In this document: positions 2,466 through 57,490 of the stretch, one piece after another
Position numbering within the stretch: the stretch's first letter is position 1
Layout: each line of letters begins with the position of its first letter
NCBI GenBank assembly: GCA_016841445.1
Contig: JAENZD010000004.1
Coordinates: 62,001-126,000 of the forward strand
Direction of reading: 5' to 3'
Length of the DNA stretch: 64,000 bases
Origin: Anaerolineaceae bacterium
GTDB lineage: Bacteria > Chloroflexota > Anaerolineae > Anaerolineales > Anaerolineaceae
The notes under the pieces: generated by a model
What the model was told of the DNA's origin: nothing
The model's database searches: none
What the model saw: only the letters and a program-made list of their open reading frames with translations
Translations under genes and position numbers: made by a program

Positions 2466-2578
2466 TGGTGGGTCCAGAGAGATTAGAACGCTTGACCTTC
2501 TCAATGCCATTGAGACGCGCTCCTGAGCGACCATCGGGAAGCGAACCCCCGTCCAGGGGGCTACTGCGCTATGGGTTT
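2466..2578 (-). pseudogene. tRNA-Ala-like copy 1, degenerate, D-loop insertion
   Basis: Last copy of the array in transcription order. The anticodon arm (TCTCA, loop ATGGCAT, TGAGA) is kept. The T-arm is broken: the 5' side of its stem reads AAGCG where the intact gene has GAGAG. The 3' acceptor strand reads TGGACCC instead of TGGGTCC. The D-loop holds the same 37-nt net insertion as the other copies. It should not fold as a working tRNA. Confidence 0.8.
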
Positions 2579-2613: not shown

Positions 2614-2726
2614 TGGTGGACCCAGAGAGATTCGAACTCTCGACCTTCTCAATGCCATTGAGACGCGCTCCTGAGCGACCATCGGGAAGCGAACCCCCGT
2701 CCAGGGGGCTACTGCGCTATGGGTTT
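2614..2726 (-). pseudogene. tRNA-Ala(GGC)-like copy 2 with expanded D-loop
   Basis: The anticodon arm, T-arm, 3' acceptor strand and encoded CCA are identical to the intact tRNA-Ala(GGC) at 2910-2985. The 5' acceptor strand reads AAACCCA instead of GGGCCCA, leaving five of seven acceptor pairs. The D-loop is enlarged by 37 nt net between GCGCAGT and GGAGCGC. The insert can fold into a CCCCC/GGGGG hairpin and also contains a TTCG loop flanked by complementary bases. It is probably non-functional as a tRNA, but it is not randomly decayed. Confidence 0.75.
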
Positions 2727-2761: not shown

Positions 2762-2874
2762 TGGTGGACCCAGAGAGATTCGAACTCTCGACCTTCTCAA
2801 TGCCATTGAGACGCGCTCCTGAGCGACCATCGGGAAGCGAACCCCCGTCCAGGGGGCTACTGCGCTATGGGTTT
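2762..2874 (-). pseudogene. tRNA-Ala(GGC)-like copy 3 with expanded D-loop
   Basis: Identical in sequence to copy 2 as far as can be read. It keeps the GGC anticodon, the GAGAG/CTCTC T-stem and an encoded CCA, with the 5' acceptor strand altered to AAACCCA and the 37-nt net D-loop insertion. It sits immediately after the terminator hairpin of the intact tRNA-Ala(GGC), so its transcription would need read-through or an unseen promoter. Confidence 0.75.
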
Positions 2875-2909: not shown

Positions 2910-2985
2910 TGGTGGACCCAGAGAGATTCGAACTCTCGACCTTCTCAATGCCATTGAGACGCGCTCCCAACTGCGCTATGGGCCC
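2910..2985 (-). tRNA. tRNA-Ala(GGC)
   Basis: A complete 76-nt cloverleaf including an encoded CCA. The acceptor pairs GGGCCCA with TGGGTCC. The D-arm is GCGC-AGTTGGGA-GCGC. The anticodon stem TCTCA/TGAGA encloses loop ATGGCAT with anticodon GGC. The T-arm is GAGAG-TTCGAAT-CTCTC. It is the intact parent of the three downstream tandem copies. Confidence 0.95.
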
Positions 2986-3005: not shown

Positions 3006-3058
3006 CTCATAGTCGCTCCCAATTCCCCAGAAGGGGACAAAGTGCACTATGAGCTCAA
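3006..3058 (-). pseudogene. tRNA 5'-half remnant interrupted by a GC-rich hairpin
   Basis: The minus strand reads as a tRNA-Ala-like 5' end (CTCATAGTGCA, compare CCCATAGCGCA), then about 18 nt carrying the palindromic core TCCCCTTCTGGGGA, then TTGGGAGCGAC, which matches the D-loop and 3' D-stem of tRNA-Ala. It ends ACTATGAG, complementary to its own start CTCATAGT, so the whole piece can fold as a long hairpin. No anticodon or T-arm is present. The same 14-bp core sits in the broken tRNA-Lys copy at 57334-57382. Confidence 0.7.
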
Positions 3059-3075
3059 AATTTTATAATGTGTGC

Positions 3076-3106
3076 CCTTGTGCCCTGCGGCTTACCGGGC
3101 ACAAGG
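3076..3106 (-). terminator. Perfect 10-bp hairpin at the 3' end of tRNA-Ala(CGC)
   Basis: CCTTGTGCCC at 3076-3085 is exactly complementary to GGGCACAAGG at 3097-3106. There is no clean T-run after it on the minus strand, so it may be a terminator or a processing signal. It overlaps the last two bases after the tRNA discriminator. Confidence 0.5.
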
Positions 3107-3179
3107 TGGACCTGGAGGGACTCGAACCCTCGACCTCCTCAGTGCGATTGAGGCGCGCTCCCAACTGCGCTACAGGCCC
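3107..3179 (-). tRNA. tRNA-Ala(CGC)
   Basis: A 73-nt cloverleaf without encoded CCA (the genome continues CCT). The acceptor is GGGCCTG with CAGGTCC. The D-arm is GCGC-AGTTGGGA-GCGC. The anticodon stem CCTCA/TGAGG holds loop ATCGCAC, anticodon CGC. The T-arm is GAGGG-TTCGAGT-CCCTC. It is the promoter-proximal member of the minus-strand alanine tRNA locus. Confidence 0.95.
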
Positions 3180-3355: not shown

Positions 3356-4051
3356 ATGACACGAGTCTTTGCGATTAATGGCAGTCCCCGTTTGGATAAG
3401 GGAAATACGGGGTTAATTCTTTCCACCTTTTTACAAGGTTTAGAGTTGAACGGCGCAGAAGTAGACTTGTTTTATTCAAGCCGGCTCAAAATCAGACCTT
3501 GCAACTGTGGACACCTTTATTGCTGGAACCGGACGCCCGGGGAATGTATTCATAAGGATAGCATGCAGGAAATCTATCCAATAATGAAGGCGGCAGACCT
3601 GCTCCTAATTGCCACCCCCGTGTATACTCCCCTGCCTGGTGACCTGCAAAATTTTATTAACCGTCTGACCCCGCTCCTGGATCCACAGATCCGGTTTCGG
3701 GAAGATCGAACGCGTGCACAATTTCGGGAAGATGTTCAGATCAGTAAGATCATTCTGGTGGCGGTCGGCGGTTGGTGGGAGCCAGAGAACTTTGACACCG
3801 TCATCCGTATTGTTCAGGAACTTGCTGAAGTATCGGGCGTAACTTATGGCGGGTCACTGATCCGGCCGCATGCACAATACATGCGTAAAGCAGGGCAGTT
3901 AACGGAAGAGGGCCAGGAAATTTTACGGATGATTGAACATGCAGCACAGGAATTGGTCCAATTCGGTGAAATAGGAATGGAAACGCTGGAATCAATCCGG
4001 CAACCACTTGTCACGAAAGAAGCATTTTTGGGAGATTGGTATCAGTCCTGA
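3356..4051 (+). CDS. Flavodoxin-fold NAD(P)H-dependent oxidoreductase
   Basis: The product is 231 residues with the FMN-reductase (flavodoxin-like) fold. The N-terminal AINGSPRLDKGNTG is the FMN phosphate-binding loop, and TPVYTPLPGDLQNFINR matches the second flavin loop of multimeric WrbA-like proteins. A Cys pair region (RPCNCGHLYCWNRTPGEC) lies at about residues 47-64, as in iron-sulfur flavoprotein relatives, although the cluster spacing is not canonical. It should reduce a small organic substrate or quinone in the cytoplasm. A clear AGGGAGG ribosome site precedes the ATG. It is transcribed alone and converges on the PIG-L gene. Confidence 0.85.
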   Translation: MTRVFAINGSPRLDKGNTGLILSTFLQGLELNGAEVDLFYSSRLKIRPCNCGHLYCWNRTPGECIHKDSMQEIYPIMKAADLLLIATPVYTPLPGDLQNFINRLTPLLDPQIRFREDRTRAQFREDVQISKIILVAVGGWWEPENFDTVIRIVQELAEVSGVTYGGSLIRPHAQYMRKAGQLTEEGQEILRMIEHAAQELVQFGEIGMETLESIRQPLVTKEAFLGDWYQS

Positions 4052-4079
4052 ATTTGGGAAGGGATAAGGGCGTAAAAAC

Positions 4080-4823
4080 TTAAGTTGTTGGGGCCTTTTG
4101 CCACAATCGCCCCCCACCACCAGCAGAGTAATTTCTCAATGCTAATTTGACTTCATTTTCATCGCGCCAGAACATGCTAAGTTGTGAGGCATAGCACAGT
4201 ACGGCTTCTTGCCACGCTTTAAGATCAGCTTCATCCAGTTGATTACTGACCTGAGACCATTTATTGGGATGGTTTTGTGGGTTATTTGGATCCCCAAGGA
4301 CATATGGATAATCGGCATAATAGAGATCAACTTGACCCGATAATTCACCAGCCTGCCGCACAGCACGATGGTCAATATGATTCCCGAGGCTGATAGGGAT
4401 TACCAGTTTGGCCCCATCAGTTATTTCCTGCAAAAGTATGTCGTTTATCTGCTGAACCAGCCCCGGTTCCGGGGATTTCCCAAACAGTTCATCGTCATTG
4501 TTGACCAGAGGCAAGCCGGTTGTAGGATCCTGGCGATAGATGGCATCCAGCCAATCAAAATGACGAGGTTGGGCACCCATCACCTGGCAGGCGGCGTTGT
4601 CTTCACCCCTGCGAACCTGGACAACCTCTGCGCCGGTCATACCCCATTCAAGGTGCATTTCCTTGGCGAAGTCTGAGAAGGTACCCTCTGGTGGGAAACC
4701 GCCCATGATGGTCCAGACCTCAATGGCGCGCCCTTGCCGGGATAGATGGTGCAGCAGCCCTCCGCAGGAAAGGGCAACATCATCGAAGTGGGGTGAGAGG
4801 AAGATGTAGCGCTGAGAAGACAT
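4080..4823 (-). CDS. PIG-L (LmbE) family deacetylase
   Basis: The product is 247 residues, the usual length for the family. The zinc-binding N-terminal motif is LSPHFDDVALSCGG and the later histidine pair is GNHIDHRAV. These enzymes remove acetyl groups from N-acetylglucosamine-type substrates, as in mycothiol, bacillithiol or glycolipid synthesis. The substrate here cannot be told from sequence. No thiol-biosynthesis glycosyltransferase or ligase lies beside it. No membrane segment is visible, so a cytoplasmic location is likely. Confidence 0.88.
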   Translation of the reverse strand: MSSQRYIFLSPHFDDVALSCGGLLHHLSRQGRAIEVWTIMGGFPPEGTFSDFAKEMHLEWGMTGAEVVQVRRGEDNAACQVMGAQPRHFDWLDAIYRQDPTTGLPLVNNDDELFGKSPEPGLVQQINDILLQEITDGAKLVIPISLGNHIDHRAVRQAGELSGQVDLYYADYPYVLGDPNNPQNHPNKWSQVSNQLDEADLKAWQEAVLCYASQLSMFWRDENEVKLALRNYSAGGGGRLWQKAPTT

Positions 4824-4854
4824 GAACCTATTTTATCATTATTGGGAGGGAGCG

Positions 4855-4953
4855 GTGAAGGGTGAATGGTGAGTGAGAAAGGGCAATCAGGCAACCAGGA
4901 AATCAGGGATCAGGTTTTCAGGGATCAGGTTATCAGGAATCAGGTGAGCAATA
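4855..4953 (+). repeat. Intergenic repeat: GTGAATGGTGAGT plus degenerate AATCAGG array
   Basis: A GGTGAATGGTGAGTGAG block is followed by about eight loose copies of a 7-11 bp word with the core ATCAGG or ACCAGG. The same two-part arrangement recurs inverted at 6261-6413 and direct at 57401-57490. It lies in the 395-bp gap between PIG-L and the DUF2812 operon. Confidence 0.75.
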
Positions 4954-5171
4954 GGATGGTTGATATGATAATTTGGGAAAGGATTGACATTAATATATCG
5001 TCAAACATACTAATAGCGCTGAAATCAGATATTAAACATATCATCTGATGCATTTTTGGTAGAGCAATAGGGATGTTAAAGCATAAAGAAGTGTCAATAA
5101 AGGTTGAAGATTCAAAAATCCGTCAACATTATAGCTTGAAATTGCTTGAAAAACCATTGCATTTATGTTAT

Positions 5172-5190
5172 TATATCGATATGCGATATA
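5172..5190. promoter_or_regulatory. Perfect inverted repeat, likely PadR operator
   Basis: TATATCG-ATATG-CGATATA is a perfect 7-bp dyad with a 5-bp spacer, 30 bp upstream of the DUF2812 start. Dyads of this TATC-GATA type are typical of PadR family operators, and a padR gene is the second gene of this operon, so autoregulation is inferred. Confidence 0.65.
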
Positions 5191-5218
5191 GTCTTGTTGA
5201 GAATTCTAAGGAGAAGTC

Positions 5219-5767
5219 ATGAAAGATGAAAAGGTAACGATATTTAAGTGGTTTTGGGGGTGGCAGGATGATAGACAAGAAGCTTGGCTGGAAGAAATGT
5301 CTCAAAATGGTTTGCATCTGGTGGATATAAAGGCTTTTGGACGCTACGTCTTTGAGGTAAATACCGATAATAGCTATATCTATCGAATGGATTTTGACCG
5401 GACTTCCAGAAAAAACACTGATTATTTCAGACTGATCGAAGATGCTGGCTGGGAAAGAGTTATTACAGTCATGGGATGGCAGTACTGGCGAAAAGATGCA
5501 TCGAATGGGAAAACCGCAGAAATTTTCACCGATAATGACTCGAAAATCAAGAAGTACAACCGATTTCTCACTAGCTTGTTGGTGTCGTCGCCTGTATCTA
5601 TGTTTATCATCGTGCTCGGCATGTTCAAGCGCTTTCCAGGTCGGCACCCGCAATGGGTTGTCATTATGACCATCTCGCTTTATATGGCGTGGTTCTTTTT
5701 CGTGGGTGTTAACATCATAAAAGTCATCCAGCGCATTAATGAACTCAAGCGCATGAGGGGATTATGA
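5219..5767 (+). CDS. DUF2812 membrane protein
   Basis: The product is 182 residues. The first 110 residues form the DUF2812 domain: FKWFWGWQDDRQEAWLEEM, GLHLV, YIYRMDF and EDAGWERV are typical of it. Two membrane segments follow at about 118-138 and 146-166, and the tail is basic. The function of the family is unknown, but it is very often paired with a PadR regulator, as here, where the PadR gene follows after 33 bp. The ATG is preceded by AAGGAGAAGTC. A perfect dyad in the promoter suggests control by the neighbouring repressor. Confidence 0.85.
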   Translation: MKDEKVTIFKWFWGWQDDRQEAWLEEMSQNGLHLVDIKAFGRYVFEVNTDNSYIYRMDFDRTSRKNTDYFRLIEDAGWERVITVMGWQYWRKDASNGKTAEIFTDNDSKIKKYNRFLTSLLVSSPVSMFIIVLGMFKRFPGRHPQWVVIMTISLYMAWFFFVGVNIIKVIQRINELKRMRGL

Positions 5768-5800
5768 TCGGGAATTATCGAATACAAGCAAGGTAATGAT

Positions 5801-6148
5801 ATGGCCAACGAAAAAGACATTGAAAAATATCTACCCTTGAGTGAAAGCACCTATTACATTATGCTTGTACTGGTGAATCCGATCCATGGCTATGGGGTCA
5901 TGCAGAAGGTTGAAACATTAACGGACGGTGAGGTCAGTATTGGGCCGGGAACGTTGTATGGCGCATTCTCAACCTTAGAGAAAGAGGACCTGATTGAAAT
6001 GGTCCGGGAAGAGGACAGGCGGAAATATTATACGCTTACTGAAAAGGGAAGAGAGACACTCAGGGCTCAGCTAATGCGGTTGAAGATCATGACACAAAGC
6101 GCCCGGCAGACCATGATTGAATCGCGTGATTCGCTCCTGGCGATGTGA
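5801..6148 (+). CDS. PadR family transcriptional regulator
   Basis: The product is 115 residues, a minimal PadR winged-helix protein. The motifs LSESTYYIMLVLVNPIHGYG, IGPGTLYGAFSTLEKEDLI and EDRRKYYTLTEKG are diagnostic. The short C-terminal helix (about 90-110) should mediate dimerisation. It follows the DUF2812 gene on the same strand after 33 bp, and the operon promoter carries a fitting dyad at 5172-5190. It likely represses its own operon until a membrane or drug stress signal appears; that signal is inferred from the family only. Confidence 0.9.
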   Translation: MANEKDIEKYLPLSESTYYIMLVLVNPIHGYGVMQKVETLTDGEVSIGPGTLYGAFSTLEKEDLIEMVREEDRRKYYTLTEKGRETLRAQLMRLKIMTQSARQTMIESRDSLLAM

Positions 6149-6260
6149 GCGGATATGACATAATAAGCTTATGAATTCCCTCATCCATCACACTTTCAGC
6201 GTACCACCTTCCCCGGTAGCACCTAAAGGTGTTTCGCTTCGCTTCAGGGAGGGCTTTTCC

Positions 6261-6413
6261 CTTACCTGATTGCCTTATTGCCTGTTTCCTAATTCCCTGA
6301 TCACCCACTCACCATTCACCATTCTCCATCCTTAAATCATAACTGCCCCAAGAATCTTCCTGGGGCAGCTGAATTATTTTCCTAATTGCCTGATTACCTA
6401 TTCCCCTGGTTGC
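6261..6413 (-). repeat. Intergenic AATCAGG/GTGAATGGTGAGT repeat, inverted copy
   Basis: The minus-strand reading gives GGTGAATGGTGAGTGGGTGATCAGG and then several spaced AATCAGG-like words. A second cluster of the words lies at 6381-6413. The block fills the space between padR and the 3' end of the EF-G-like gene. Confidence 0.7.
6343..6368 (-). terminator. Hairpin downstream of the EF-G-like gene
   Basis: CTGCCCCA and TGGGGCAG form a perfect 8-bp stem with a 10-nt loop, about 45 bp past the stop codon. No long T-run follows, so it is only terminator-like. Confidence 0.45.
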
Positions 6414-8486
6414 CTACTCTTCCTTCTCCTCATCTTCGCGCTTCTTGGCTTCGATGATTTCCTGGGTCAGGTGCGAAGGCACCATTTCATAGTGGTCAAA
6501 TTCCATCGTGAAGTAACCACGTCCGCCGGTCATGGAGCGCAGGATCGTCGTGTAACGCAGCATTTCCGACAGCGGAACGTTAGCTGTGACGGTGGACCGG
6601 CCTTTTTGGGTATCCATCCCCTGCACGCGAGCTCGGCGTGAGTTCATATCGCCTAAAACGTCACCCATGTTACTTTCGGGCACGACCACTTTAACACTCA
6701 TGATCGGCTCAAACAGCACCGGGTTAGCGCCTTTGAAAGCAAGCTTGAAGGCTTCACGTCCAGCGATTTCGAAAGCAATCGGCTTTGAGTCGACCGGGTG
6801 TTCTTTACCATCGAAGACAGAAATTTTCACGTTATGTACGGGGTAACCGGCAACAACGCCGTCTTTCATCACGTTGCGAATGCCTTTTTCAATGGATGCC
6901 ATGTAGTTGTTTGAAACTGAACCGCCGAAGACGTCATTTGAAAACTCAAAATCCTCATCTGCCAGCGGGATCACCCGAAGGTGAACCTCACCGAACTGGC
7001 CGGCACCACCGGTCTGTTTCTTATGGCGGTACATGGCCGCGTTTTCTCGGGTGATGCGTTCCTCGTAGGGGACTTTTGGTTCTTCAGTGTTCAATCCAAG
7101 CTGGAACTTATTTTCAGCACGGCGGATCGCAACGTCAATGTGCTGGTCACCCATACCCTGCAGGATGGTTTGCCGGGTGGCGTGCTCATTATGCCACGAG
7201 AGGGTCATATCCTCTTCACACAGCCGTGAAAGCGTGGTGCTGAGCTTTGCTGCATCGGACTGCGTCTTGGGGAACAGGGCAACCTGGTACAGGGCGTTTG
7301 GATAATCCGCTTGGGGCATGGTTAATGGGTTGTCTTTGTCGCATAAGGTGTCACCAGTCGTAGTGACACTTAATTTAGCGACTAAACCAATATCTCCGGG
7401 GTGCAACTGGCTGACAGGGGTACCTTCTTTTCCACGAGGGACCGCCATACCCGCCAGGCGTTCTTCTTCCTCTTTGTTGGCGTTCCAGACCCGGGTATCA
7501 GCTTTAATCGTGCCGGAGTAAACCCGGAAAAAGGTCTGCTTACCCACAAAGGGGTCTGCTGTGGTTTTCCAGACATAGGCTGCCAGGGGGCCATCGCCTT
7601 TGGGTTCAAGTATGACCGTTTCGCCCTTCTCATTGGTGGCTTCAGCATTGCCTACGTCAGCGGGGGAAGGCATCAGGTTTGAGAGAACTTCAAGCAAAGG
7701 GGTCAGGCCAACCTTATGAGCACCTGCAGCAACCATCACAGGGATAAACTCACCTTCCCATATGATGCTGCGAAGGCCTCGCATGATTTCCTGATCGGTC
7801 AGATCGCCGTTTTCGAAATATTTCTCCAGCAGATCATCCTCACCCTCAGCAGCGGCTTCAACCAATGCCAGGTGGGCTTCTTCTGCCTGGTCTTTGAATT
7901 CAGCCGGGATCTCAACGCCTTCCTTTTTATCACCTTCGAAGGCTTTCATGGTCAACAGGTCAATAACCCCTTTGAAATCAGATCGTTCACCCCAGGGTAT
8001 CTGGAGGGGGATCAGGCGAGTTTCGATATGGTCCTGTACAGATTGAAGAGCTTTTTGGAAGTTGGCATTCTCCCGCTCCATCTTATTGATCAGGATCATT
8101 TTTGGCAGGTTGAACTGCTCGCTGTATTGAAAAGCCATCTCCGTGCCGACTTCCAGTCCAGCGACCGAATCGACAAGGACTAAAACGCCATCCGCAACGC
8201 GCATGGATGCGATGACTTCCCCGATGAAATCGGTATAACCGGGGGTGTCGAACAGGTTGAGCTTGACGTTTTTATACTCAATGGGTACGACAGATGTGAA
8301 AAGGGAAATACCACGACGAGTTTCTTCCTCGTCAAAATCGGAAATGGTTGTTCCGTCTTCCACCTGCCCCATACGAGTGGTGATACCGGTGAAGTTCGCC
8401 AGGGCTTCCACCAGCATCGTTTTTCCGGCACTGCCGTGAGATGCCAGCACAATGTTTCGAATTGCTTCGGTTTTATATTCTTTCAT
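6414..8486 (-). CDS. Elongation factor G-like GTPase
   Basis: The product is 690 residues, full length for EF-G. The GTPase domain shows the P-loop LASHGSAGKTMLVEAL, the RRGISLFTS switch-I region, DTPGYTDF and a guanine-specificity motif NKMERENAN. The usual NKMD aspartate is Glu here. Domains II-V follow, including GGAGQFGEVHLRV and GGRGYFTMEFDHYE. The P-loop and sequence place it in the EF-G-like (fusA2-type) paralog group rather than the canonical str-operon EF-G, and no rpsL, rpsG or tuf is adjacent. It probably acts on ribosomes, though paralogs of this group can be weak translocases. Confidence 0.9.
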   Translation of the reverse strand: MKEYKTEAIRNIVLASHGSAGKTMLVEALANFTGITTRMGQVEDGTTISDFDEEETRRGISLFTSVVPIEYKNVKLNLFDTPGYTDFIGEVIASMRVADGVLVLVDSVAGLEVGTEMAFQYSEQFNLPKMILINKMERENANFQKALQSVQDHIETRLIPLQIPWGERSDFKGVIDLLTMKAFEGDKKEGVEIPAEFKDQAEEAHLALVEAAAEGEDDLLEKYFENGDLTDQEIMRGLRSIIWEGEFIPVMVAAGAHKVGLTPLLEVLSNLMPSPADVGNAEATNEKGETVILEPKGDGPLAAYVWKTTADPFVGKQTFFRVYSGTIKADTRVWNANKEEEERLAGMAVPRGKEGTPVSQLHPGDIGLVAKLSVTTTGDTLCDKDNPLTMPQADYPNALYQVALFPKTQSDAAKLSTTLSRLCEEDMTLSWHNEHATRQTILQGMGDQHIDVAIRRAENKFQLGLNTEEPKVPYEERITRENAAMYRHKKQTGGAGQFGEVHLRVIPLADEDFEFSNDVFGGSVSNNYMASIEKGIRNVMKDGVVAGYPVHNVKISVFDGKEHPVDSKPIAFEIAGREAFKLAFKGANPVLFEPIMSVKVVVPESNMGDVLGDMNSRRARVQGMDTQKGRSTVTANVPLSEMLRYTTILRSMTGGRGYFTMEFDHYEMVPSHLTQEIIEAKKREDEEKEE

Positions 8487-57218: not shown

Positions 57219-57233
57219 AAACACCTCAAAAAT

Positions 57234-57306
<73 letters not shown>

Positions 57307-57333
57307 TTTTCCTTTTAATCCCAATGTAAAAAG

Positions 57334-57382
57334 TTGGTTCGGAGTCCCCAGAAGGGGAGGATCTTCGAGTCTCCGGAGGGTC
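57334..57382 (+). pseudogene. Partial tRNA-Lys 3'-half with hairpin insertion
   Basis: The sequence repeats the tRNA-Lys 3' half (TTGGTTCGGAG...TTCGAGTCTCC to GGGTC), but a 19-bp insertion TCCCCAGAAGGGGAGGATC separates GGAG from TTCGAG, cutting the T-arm. Bases 57345-57358 are the palindromic core TCCCCAGAAGGGGA, identical to the core inside the tRNA remnant at 3024-3037. Confidence 0.85.
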
Positions 57383-57400
57383 ATTTTTCATTTAAAGCAT

Positions 57401-57490
57401 GTGAATTGTGAATGGTGAGTGGTGAATGGTTGATCAGGTAATCAGTTAGCAGGTAATCAGGTAATCAGGTAGCAGGAAGCAGGAATCAGG
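57401..57490 (+). repeat. Intergenic AATCAGG/GTGAATGGTGAGT repeat, third copy
   Basis: GTGAATTGTGAATGGTGAGT is followed by about six AATCAGG or AGCAGG words. It belongs to the family at 4855 and 6261. Confidence 0.75.

Follow-up and report, generated by a model that had tools for sequence, protein, structure and literature searches.

Why should the same short palindrome lie inside partial copies of two different tRNA genes some 54 kb apart? tRNA genes are classic docking sites of mobile DNA, and the fate of the fragments left over beside them has been little studied. The window analyzed here is a whole stretch of 64,000 nucleotides from an Anaerolineaceae genome of 3,345,903 bases (G000 below). 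As an earlier note on this DNA had pointed out, the 14-mer TCCCCAGAAGGGGA occurs exactly at window positions 3024-3037 and 57345-57358, both sites lie within partial tRNA copies beside intact tRNA genes (in the D-loop of a tRNA-Ala copy and the T-arm of a tRNA-Lys copy), and the hairpin is oriented oppositely relative to the tRNA at the two sites. Two parts of that description have to be adjusted. At each site it is a copy that is interrupted and not a functional tRNA, and the 14-nt hairpin, although exact, is better regarded as part of a 19-nt unit, at 57345-57363 and at about 3024-3042. The features, by window position and strand, are the following.

57233..57307, + strand: intact tRNA-Lys(CTT) (ARAGORN; Rfam, 68.3 bits)
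57333..57344, + strand: left piece of a partial tRNA-Lys copy, comprising the variable region and the 5' strand of the T-stem (from sequence)
57345..57363, + strand: 19-nt insert, hairpin TCCCC-AGAA-GGGGA (57345-57358) and 5-nt tail GGATC
57364..57384, + strand: right piece of the partial tRNA-Lys copy, T-loop to 3' end, 21/21 identical to the gene
3105..3179, - strand: intact tRNA-Ala(CGC) (ARAGORN, Rfam)
3006..3056, - strand: degenerate 5'-part tRNA-Ala(GGC) copy, interrupted in the D-loop; outer stem CTCATAG/CTATGAG
3024..3042, + strand: 19-nt insert, antisense to the tRNA, hairpin 3024-3037 and tail (length by reading against tRNA-Ala; ends ambiguous by 1-2 nt)
2910..2985, - strand: intact tRNA-Ala(GGC) (ARAGORN, Rfam)
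2762..2873, - strand: downstream tRNA-Ala(GGC) copy 1, 37-nt D-loop insert at 2820-2856
2614..2725, - strand: downstream tRNA-Ala(GGC) copy 2, 37-nt D-loop insert at 2672-2708
2466..2577, - strand: downstream tRNA-Ala(GGC) copy 3, 91% identical, 37-nt D-loop insert at 2524-2560

The Lys copy as a whole (57333-57384) is the 3' part of the gene, broken at the border of T-stem and T-loop, and lies 25 nt downstream of the intact gene. Just beyond it, window positions 57433-57490 hold a short tandem repeat resembling ATCAGGTA, and similar gtgaatgg/aggtatt repeats follow tRNA-Lys in several relatives. The degenerate Ala copy is located between the Ala(CGC) and Ala(GGC) genes, and the three further Ala(GGC) copies (2466-2873) stand in tandem downstream of the Ala gene.

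That the 14-mer might be frequent across the genome, an objection that the earlier note had raised against itself, is not borne out. The two window sites are its only forward matches in G000 (reversed control, 0), and it is present in 4 of 61 genomes, with 5 matches in all. Three of the five lie in tRNA copies, the third being the equivalent Ala copy of genome G003, and the matches in G016 and G037 have no tRNA gene within the fetched 3 kb. With two mismatches allowed, dinucleotide shuffles of the window averaged 0.73 matches and 16 of 100 shuffles reached 2; for this relaxed pattern the match count alone is weak evidence. The weight rests on the exactness of the match, its scarcity in the genome and its position within tRNA copies. 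The more general form TCCCC-NNNN-GGGGA has seven sites in G000 (reversed control, 1), four of them in broken tRNA copies and the remaining three in stop-to-stop frames of 124, 239 and 358 codons.

Broken copies accompany the Ala, Lys, Val, Glu, Gly and Pro tRNA genes of the genus, as 5' parts upstream or 3' parts downstream. Such copies hold, in one of their loops (D, anticodon or T), a hairpin rich in GC. In G000, 8 of 47 tRNA genes (Ala ggc, Ala cgc, Glu ctc, two Glu ttc, Lys ctt, Val cac and Met cat) have a partial copy no more than 400 nt downstream that scores above the 99th percentile (12.0) of non-cognate comparisons, where chance would give about 0.5 genes. Non-cognate scores, 4108 in number, ran up to 22.5, and the Glu ttc, Val and Met matches do not exceed every null score; the Ala cgc match is to the neighboring Ala ggc copies. 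Pattern search and reading also located broken copies of Gly(CCC) and Pro in G000. Among the 32 and 35 tRNA genes examined in G010 and G013, a subset of those in each genome, Val and Glu copies scored above the null maximum in both genomes and an Ala copy did so in G013; the Ala copy of G010, recognized by reading, falls under the 99.5% level. Weaker matches to Arg and Lys ttt are probably chance, and the Gly(CCC) match of G013, near a recombinase-like frame, looks like an ordinary attachment fragment. A copy typically begins with the far strand of one of three arms (D, anticodon or T); the copies contain downstream trailer DNA, including copied terminators, and are mostly partial. Near-full tRNA copies exist in G013 and G004, and exact, recent tandem copies also exist. 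By reading, a terminator-like hairpin or a T-run often comes ahead of the 3' copies.

The inserts were compared in a copy search over 154 tRNA genes, which is a non-random set in that loci outside G000, G010 and G013 were mostly picked because they matched. It returned 71 matches at 35 genes with a score of at least 14 (null, n = 1256: 99% at 13.6, maximum 18.4); the degenerate Ala copy at 3006..3056 lies below this cut-off. Inserts that contained masked bases or exceeded 60 nt were removed, which left 65 distinct inserts of at least 6 nt, 26 of them exactly 19 nt and 39 of other lengths, with smaller groups at 13 and 37 nt. Between 15 and 22 nt, with Ala duplicates merged, 32 distinct inserts divide into 23 of 19 nt, 4 of 20, 3 of 18 and 2 of 17; when the Ala(CGC) and Ala(GGC) matches are counted separately, the number is 35. 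Outside the table of 32, the T-loop inserts of Pro, Gly(CCC) and Gly(TCC) copies are also 19 nt long. The usual insert is a hairpin of about 14 nt (YCCC-loop-GGGR) followed by a 5-nt tail. Stems in the inserts average 4.1, against 2.8 in letter shuffles of the same inserts, and none of 500 shuffles reached the observed value. Stems covary while loops vary: in the Ala hairpin helix, 98.5% of cells are paired and two of the five pairs have changes on both sides, in a set of 13 related sequences for which shuffles overstate the significance.

Position and orientation are also regular. Of 35 inserts, 28 touch a loop, where 49% would be expected, and seven map to stem positions: five Val at the D-stem edge, one Ala in G006 and one Lys in G002, where the placement of the gap is ambiguous. 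The insert is antisense in D-loop copies and sense in most anticodon- and T-loop copies; the hairpin center falls in the 3' half of the insert in 13 of 15 D-loop cases and in the 5' half in 8 of 8 anticodon and 7 of 9 T-loop cases. The hairpin thus mostly points towards the broken end, with the tail against the retained tRNA end. A T-loop insert in Glu(CTC) is a real exception to this rule, and three other exceptions look like effects of gap placement or weak stems. Of 26 cases with a stem of at least 4, 17 have a loop with a purine at its first position and A at its last when read on the strand that carries hairpin and then tail, and these include both directions of the unit relative to the tRNA; the loops of Val copies depart from this form. 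In G012, a Gly(TCC) copy carries TACCCATCAGGGTAGGATC, and a neighboring copy carries the same hairpin with a further 40 nt, rich in palindromes, in its loop. This is one clear case of a second palindromic sequence nested inside the loop of the 19-nt hairpin (59 versus 19 nt), and similar nesting is seen in G013. Direct repeats flanking the insert, judged by eye, are at best suggestive, and by eye no template for the insert was noticed in the flanks.

The pattern reaches unevenly through the genus and beyond it. Ala loci were compared by reading in 13 genomes of the genus, and a D-loop-type copy stands between the two Ala genes in 10 of them, strongly degenerate in G014; none was seen there in G005, G010 and G011. 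The relative UBA5404 has two D-loop-type copies between its Ala genes. Matches to named organisms put the group in Anaerolineaceae, one of them being a Brevefilum sp. Copies of Lys(CTT) are present in G000, G004, G012 and G015, with a piece of one at a contig end in G009, and copies of Lys(TTT) in G002 (two) and G003 (at least one); eight other genomes of the genus have no Lys(CTT) copy within the 320 nt inspected, and in G008 the contig ends at the Lys(CTT) gene. The four complete Lys(CTT) copies beside their gene have an identical stem and the loops AGAA, ATAA, ATTA and GTGA. In reverse orientation, the Ala and Lys loops match in G000, G004 and G002 and mismatch in G003 and G015. Such sharing, in three of the five genomes with both loops readable, was equaled by 4 of 120 permutations and is suggestive only. 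When the Lys form was searched for as a pattern across the family, 3 of 147 genomes matched, each of them a member of this genus. In two other genera, Lys copies stand in threes: those of G024, in tandem, carry an 18-nt T-loop insert, and those of G023, tandem and identical, show by reading a lengthened T-loop for which the aligner called no insert. Among 48 outgroup tRNA genes, all Ala or Lys, three matches exceeded the highest null score (13.1), one of which (L102) is a plain fragment without a hairpin.

The near-constant length, the loop preference, the orientation tendency, the covarying stems, the occurrence with six tRNA species and the Lys copies in two further genera bear out the earlier note in suspecting a specific process, and the three processes it offered fare differently. 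Repair of cleaved tRNA genes is disfavored because the copies include trailer DNA and are mostly partial rather than interrupted whole genes. A hairpin-directed recombination site draws on the single genes and small ORFs found between such copies at tRNA-Val and tRNA-Pro, and it stays a rival rather than the preferred process. A miniature insertion fits best, with the presence of the inserts being a matter of observation and their mobility something we infer.

Our preferred reading, which we hold tentatively and at somewhat less than an even chance, is that tRNA fragments derived from attachment sites have been invaded by a mobile palindrome of fixed length acting on DNA. One tRNA end would first be duplicated locally, as a 5' part upstream or a 3' part downstream. 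Integrative elements place their crossovers in anticodon and T arms, which is why the copies may most simply be read as old attachment-site fragments and their tandem duplications; the tRNA ends, the arm breakpoints and the plain copies that bound cassettes likewise suggest attachment-site duplication as their source. A palindromic unit of near-constant length, usually 19 nt, would then enter the loop of the retained arm, spreading as a single-strand hairpin element that acts on DNA and may be tolerated only in dead tRNA copies. A fixed-length mobile palindrome is favored because the near-constant insert, the nesting and the loop variability resemble organellar hairpin elements. The most plausible mobilizer, we infer, would be a Y1 (IS200/RAYT-type) transposase. 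Matches to Y1_Tnp occur in 15 of 16 genomes of the genus, 14 of them over the cut-off, and Y1 transposases are so widespread that their presence proves little.

Several observations stand against this reading. The strongest is that TCCCC-N4-GGGGA in G000 occurs only in tRNA copies and open frames; such confinement to tRNA copies, in a count that covers only the TCCCC/GGGGA stem, is unlike ordinary mobile palindromes. D-loop breakpoints are not usual integrase sites, and 39 of the 65 inserts are not 19 nt long. No integrase gene was seen in the short Ala and Lys arrays, and only a broken recombinase fragment lies between the Glu(TTC) genes. Seven inserts fall at stem positions, the Glu(CTC) insert breaks the orientation rule, loop sharing fails in G003 and G015, and the presence of Y1 transposases says little.

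The tRNA-derived part of the preferred reading can be compared with the Islander catalogue, which, as far as its account goes, lists displaced tRNA fragments of integrative islands, with 5' fragments the rarer kind (159 versus 3760 islands; PMC4383910). The copies described here are alike in having a co-oriented tRNA-end fragment near an intact gene, breakpoints in the anticodon and T arms, and rarer 5' fragments. They differ from the fragments so described in carrying a hairpin, usually of 19 nt, in the loop where a crossover would be, in having no integrase that could be seen in most arrays, and in forming tandem copies with trailers and terminators (PMC4383910). A co-oriented fragment of the adjacent tRNA is thus present, and only the plain Val and Gly copies run uninterrupted to the tRNA end, as the hairpin copies do not. 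In G000, tRNA-Gly(CCC) has a phage-type integrase ORF beginning 13 bp from it; at a distance of 57 kb, next to two hairpin copies, is a 44-nt 3' copy of that gene.

As a separate observation, the stretch from tRNA-Gly(CCC) to that 44-nt copy (G000:C3:848785-905967, L223 to L226) is a putative 57-kb integrative island. Elsewhere in this genome, two full tRNA-Glu(TTC) genes lie 8 kb apart (G000:C3:1519782 and 1527783, L219), with a broken tyrosine-recombinase fragment between them.

Two rivals to the mobile palindrome are strongest: that the copies are recombination sites selected within cassette arrays, and that duplication and decay alone are at work. According to the former, which we consider somewhat unlikely, the copies would be working recombination sites of tRNA-anchored, integron-like cassette arrays, the arm with the hairpin loop serving as cassette site and the intact tRNA as entry site. 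Both strands of the arm are typically kept in the copies, as such a site would have it, and the slot between tRNA-Val(CAC) and a plain 3' tRNA copy holds different genes in three genomes.

L218:8535-9176 (G000): Rce1-like protease in the Val slot
L230:7469-8551 (G013): RsgA-like GTPase in the Val slot
L228:14504-16225 (G010): PIN_8 protein and a small ORF in the Val slot

The small ORF beside PIN_8 reads as HTH-like; its Pfam match was weak and unrelated. Two hairpin copies at tRNA-Pro enclose small ORFs that match nothing in Pfam, which again would suit cassettes; five cassette proteins submitted to PADLOC gave no convincing defense match. However, the Val slots are closed directly by plain copies, which have no insert and look like attachment sites, and none of the ORFs listed in the Val slots of the three genomes is an integrase. 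The Ala, Lys and Glu copies, by reading, are too close together for genes to lie between them, and T-stem pairing, also by reading, is lost in at least two of the three G024 copies. As to integrons proper, whose attC sites have the core boxes RYYYAAC/GTTRRRY, no consistent match to these boxes was found in the copies by eye, and integron integrase (TIGR02249) was over the cut-off in 0 of 16 genomes, by which an integron origin was rejected.

Joining both ideas, one may picture a 19-nt hairpin that moves site-specifically as single-stranded DNA, only into tRNA-like arm loops and with its orientation governed by the tRNA end, and that, throughout Anaerolineaceae, either marks the places where single-gene cassettes are captured next to tRNA genes or drives that capture. 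So complete a scheme, which would amount to a class of element without earlier description, we regard as doubtful.

Plain duplication and decay would require neither a mobile element nor a function: tRNA ends would be duplicated in tandem, and template switching at palindromes would then lengthen the loops. Simple tandem duplication accounts for the 5' parts upstream, the 3' parts downstream and the copied terminators, and the recent exact tandem copies and the insert lengths besides 19 nt also speak for it. Yet it would not lead one to expect that six tRNA species share a 19-nt mode in their D, anticodon and T loops when the flanks, inspected by eye, showed no template, and we judge it unlikely.

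A role as RNA, in which transcribed tRNA-like leaders or trailers act as decoys or sponges and the hairpins are under selection, is less likely and in our estimate improbable. The covarying stems agree with it, as do an Ala copy at the same place in 10 of the 13 compared genomes of the genus and promoter-like sequences seen by eye ahead of the Val copies in G013. Against it, the loop form with purine start and A end keeps to the hairpin-and-tail strand whichever way that strand faces the tRNA, which points to an identity of the DNA strand; 3' copies often come after a terminator-like hairpin or T-run; several genomes have no copies; and only tRNA reached Rfam gathering scores in the window and, with a lax threshold, at 12 loci, so that a known RNA family was rejected as well. 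Pairing of the Ala and Lys hairpins as kissing loops, their loops being complementary as RNA, was set aside in favor of the simpler shared DNA unit, which in G002 extends to a 19/19 match including the tail.

Other origins can be dismissed briefly. Retroposition of mature tRNA is rejected because the copies hold trailer DNA and no added CCA, and a virus-borne element found no support in one viral-contig scan with one Lys pattern (0 matches). A CRISPR origin was rejected: of 73 TCCCC-N4-GGGGA sites in G010, 37 in L129 sit in CRISPR-like repeats (four repeats inspected), outside tRNA copies, and by reading the tRNA-copy arrays do not have identical repeats with unique spacers of constant size. 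The L129 array itself, with a repeat ending in TTTAACTAATCCCCTTCGGGGGATTGAAAC at about 3757-8375 (G010:C1, about 1331756-1336374), has a similar stem and is unrelated to the tRNA copies.

Returning to the mobile palindrome, we compared it with known repeats. The rtT repeats of E. coli follow tyrT in tandem and include the 3' end of this tRNA gene, in which respect they resemble the copies here; we know of no hairpin insert in a tRNA loop in rtT. The foot of REP hairpins carries a conserved GTAG/GGAG tag. In the genus, GGAG precedes the hairpin in Lys(CTT) copies and not in Lys(TTT), Gly or Ala copies; the tag thus appears not to be constant. TCCCC-N4-GGGGA, whose seven sites in G000 fall either in tRNA copies or in open frames, is not a dispersed, high-copy extragenic palindrome. 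REP/RAYT systems, as far as the accounts in PMC3733652 and PMC8049555 extend, are alike in having short GC-rich hairpins of about 20 nt, and Y1_Tnp proteins are present here too. A limited literature search, in which subscription journals were thinly covered, found no description of hairpin inserts in broken tRNA copies. The system may therefore combine known kinds of element, remnants of tRNA attachment and small palindromes, in a recurring 19-nt hairpin pattern that is apparently undescribed. A hairpin that keeps a near-constant length in the loops of dead copies, with several tRNA species and beyond one genus, would be either a new minimal mobile element with extreme target specificity or a new kind of recombination site.

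A further likeness is to organellar hairpin elements, in which, according to the parts of their description drawn on here, the stems persist, the loops differ and palindromes have inserted into other palindromes (PMC2800124, PMC2670323). The hairpins described here share the conserved stems, the variable loops and the nested palindromes, clear in the one G012 case and similar in G013, and the Volvox plastid motif TCCCCTTTAGGGA is similar to them in form (PMC2800124, PMC2670323). They differ in lying on a bacterial chromosome, in their near-constant 19 nt, in being found only in tRNA-derived loops and in having an orientation tied to the tRNA end. Nor does the same hairpin occur at unrelated dispersed sites; the palindrome that is dispersed in genomes of the genus is a different one, resembling TCCCCGAAGCGNAGCGGAGTGGGA (e.g., L237, L253 and L236), sometimes inside simple repeats such as ccattcac. 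A query containing this palindrome gave 24 matches in G012, not all of them to the palindrome itself, and a related sequence is present in the Val array of G013. By reading, REP-like palindromes of the form CTTCCCC..GGGGAAG-CTGTC..CTGATGAGG also occur in genomes of the genus (L249, L181, which is G013:C1 near 410596, and L186).
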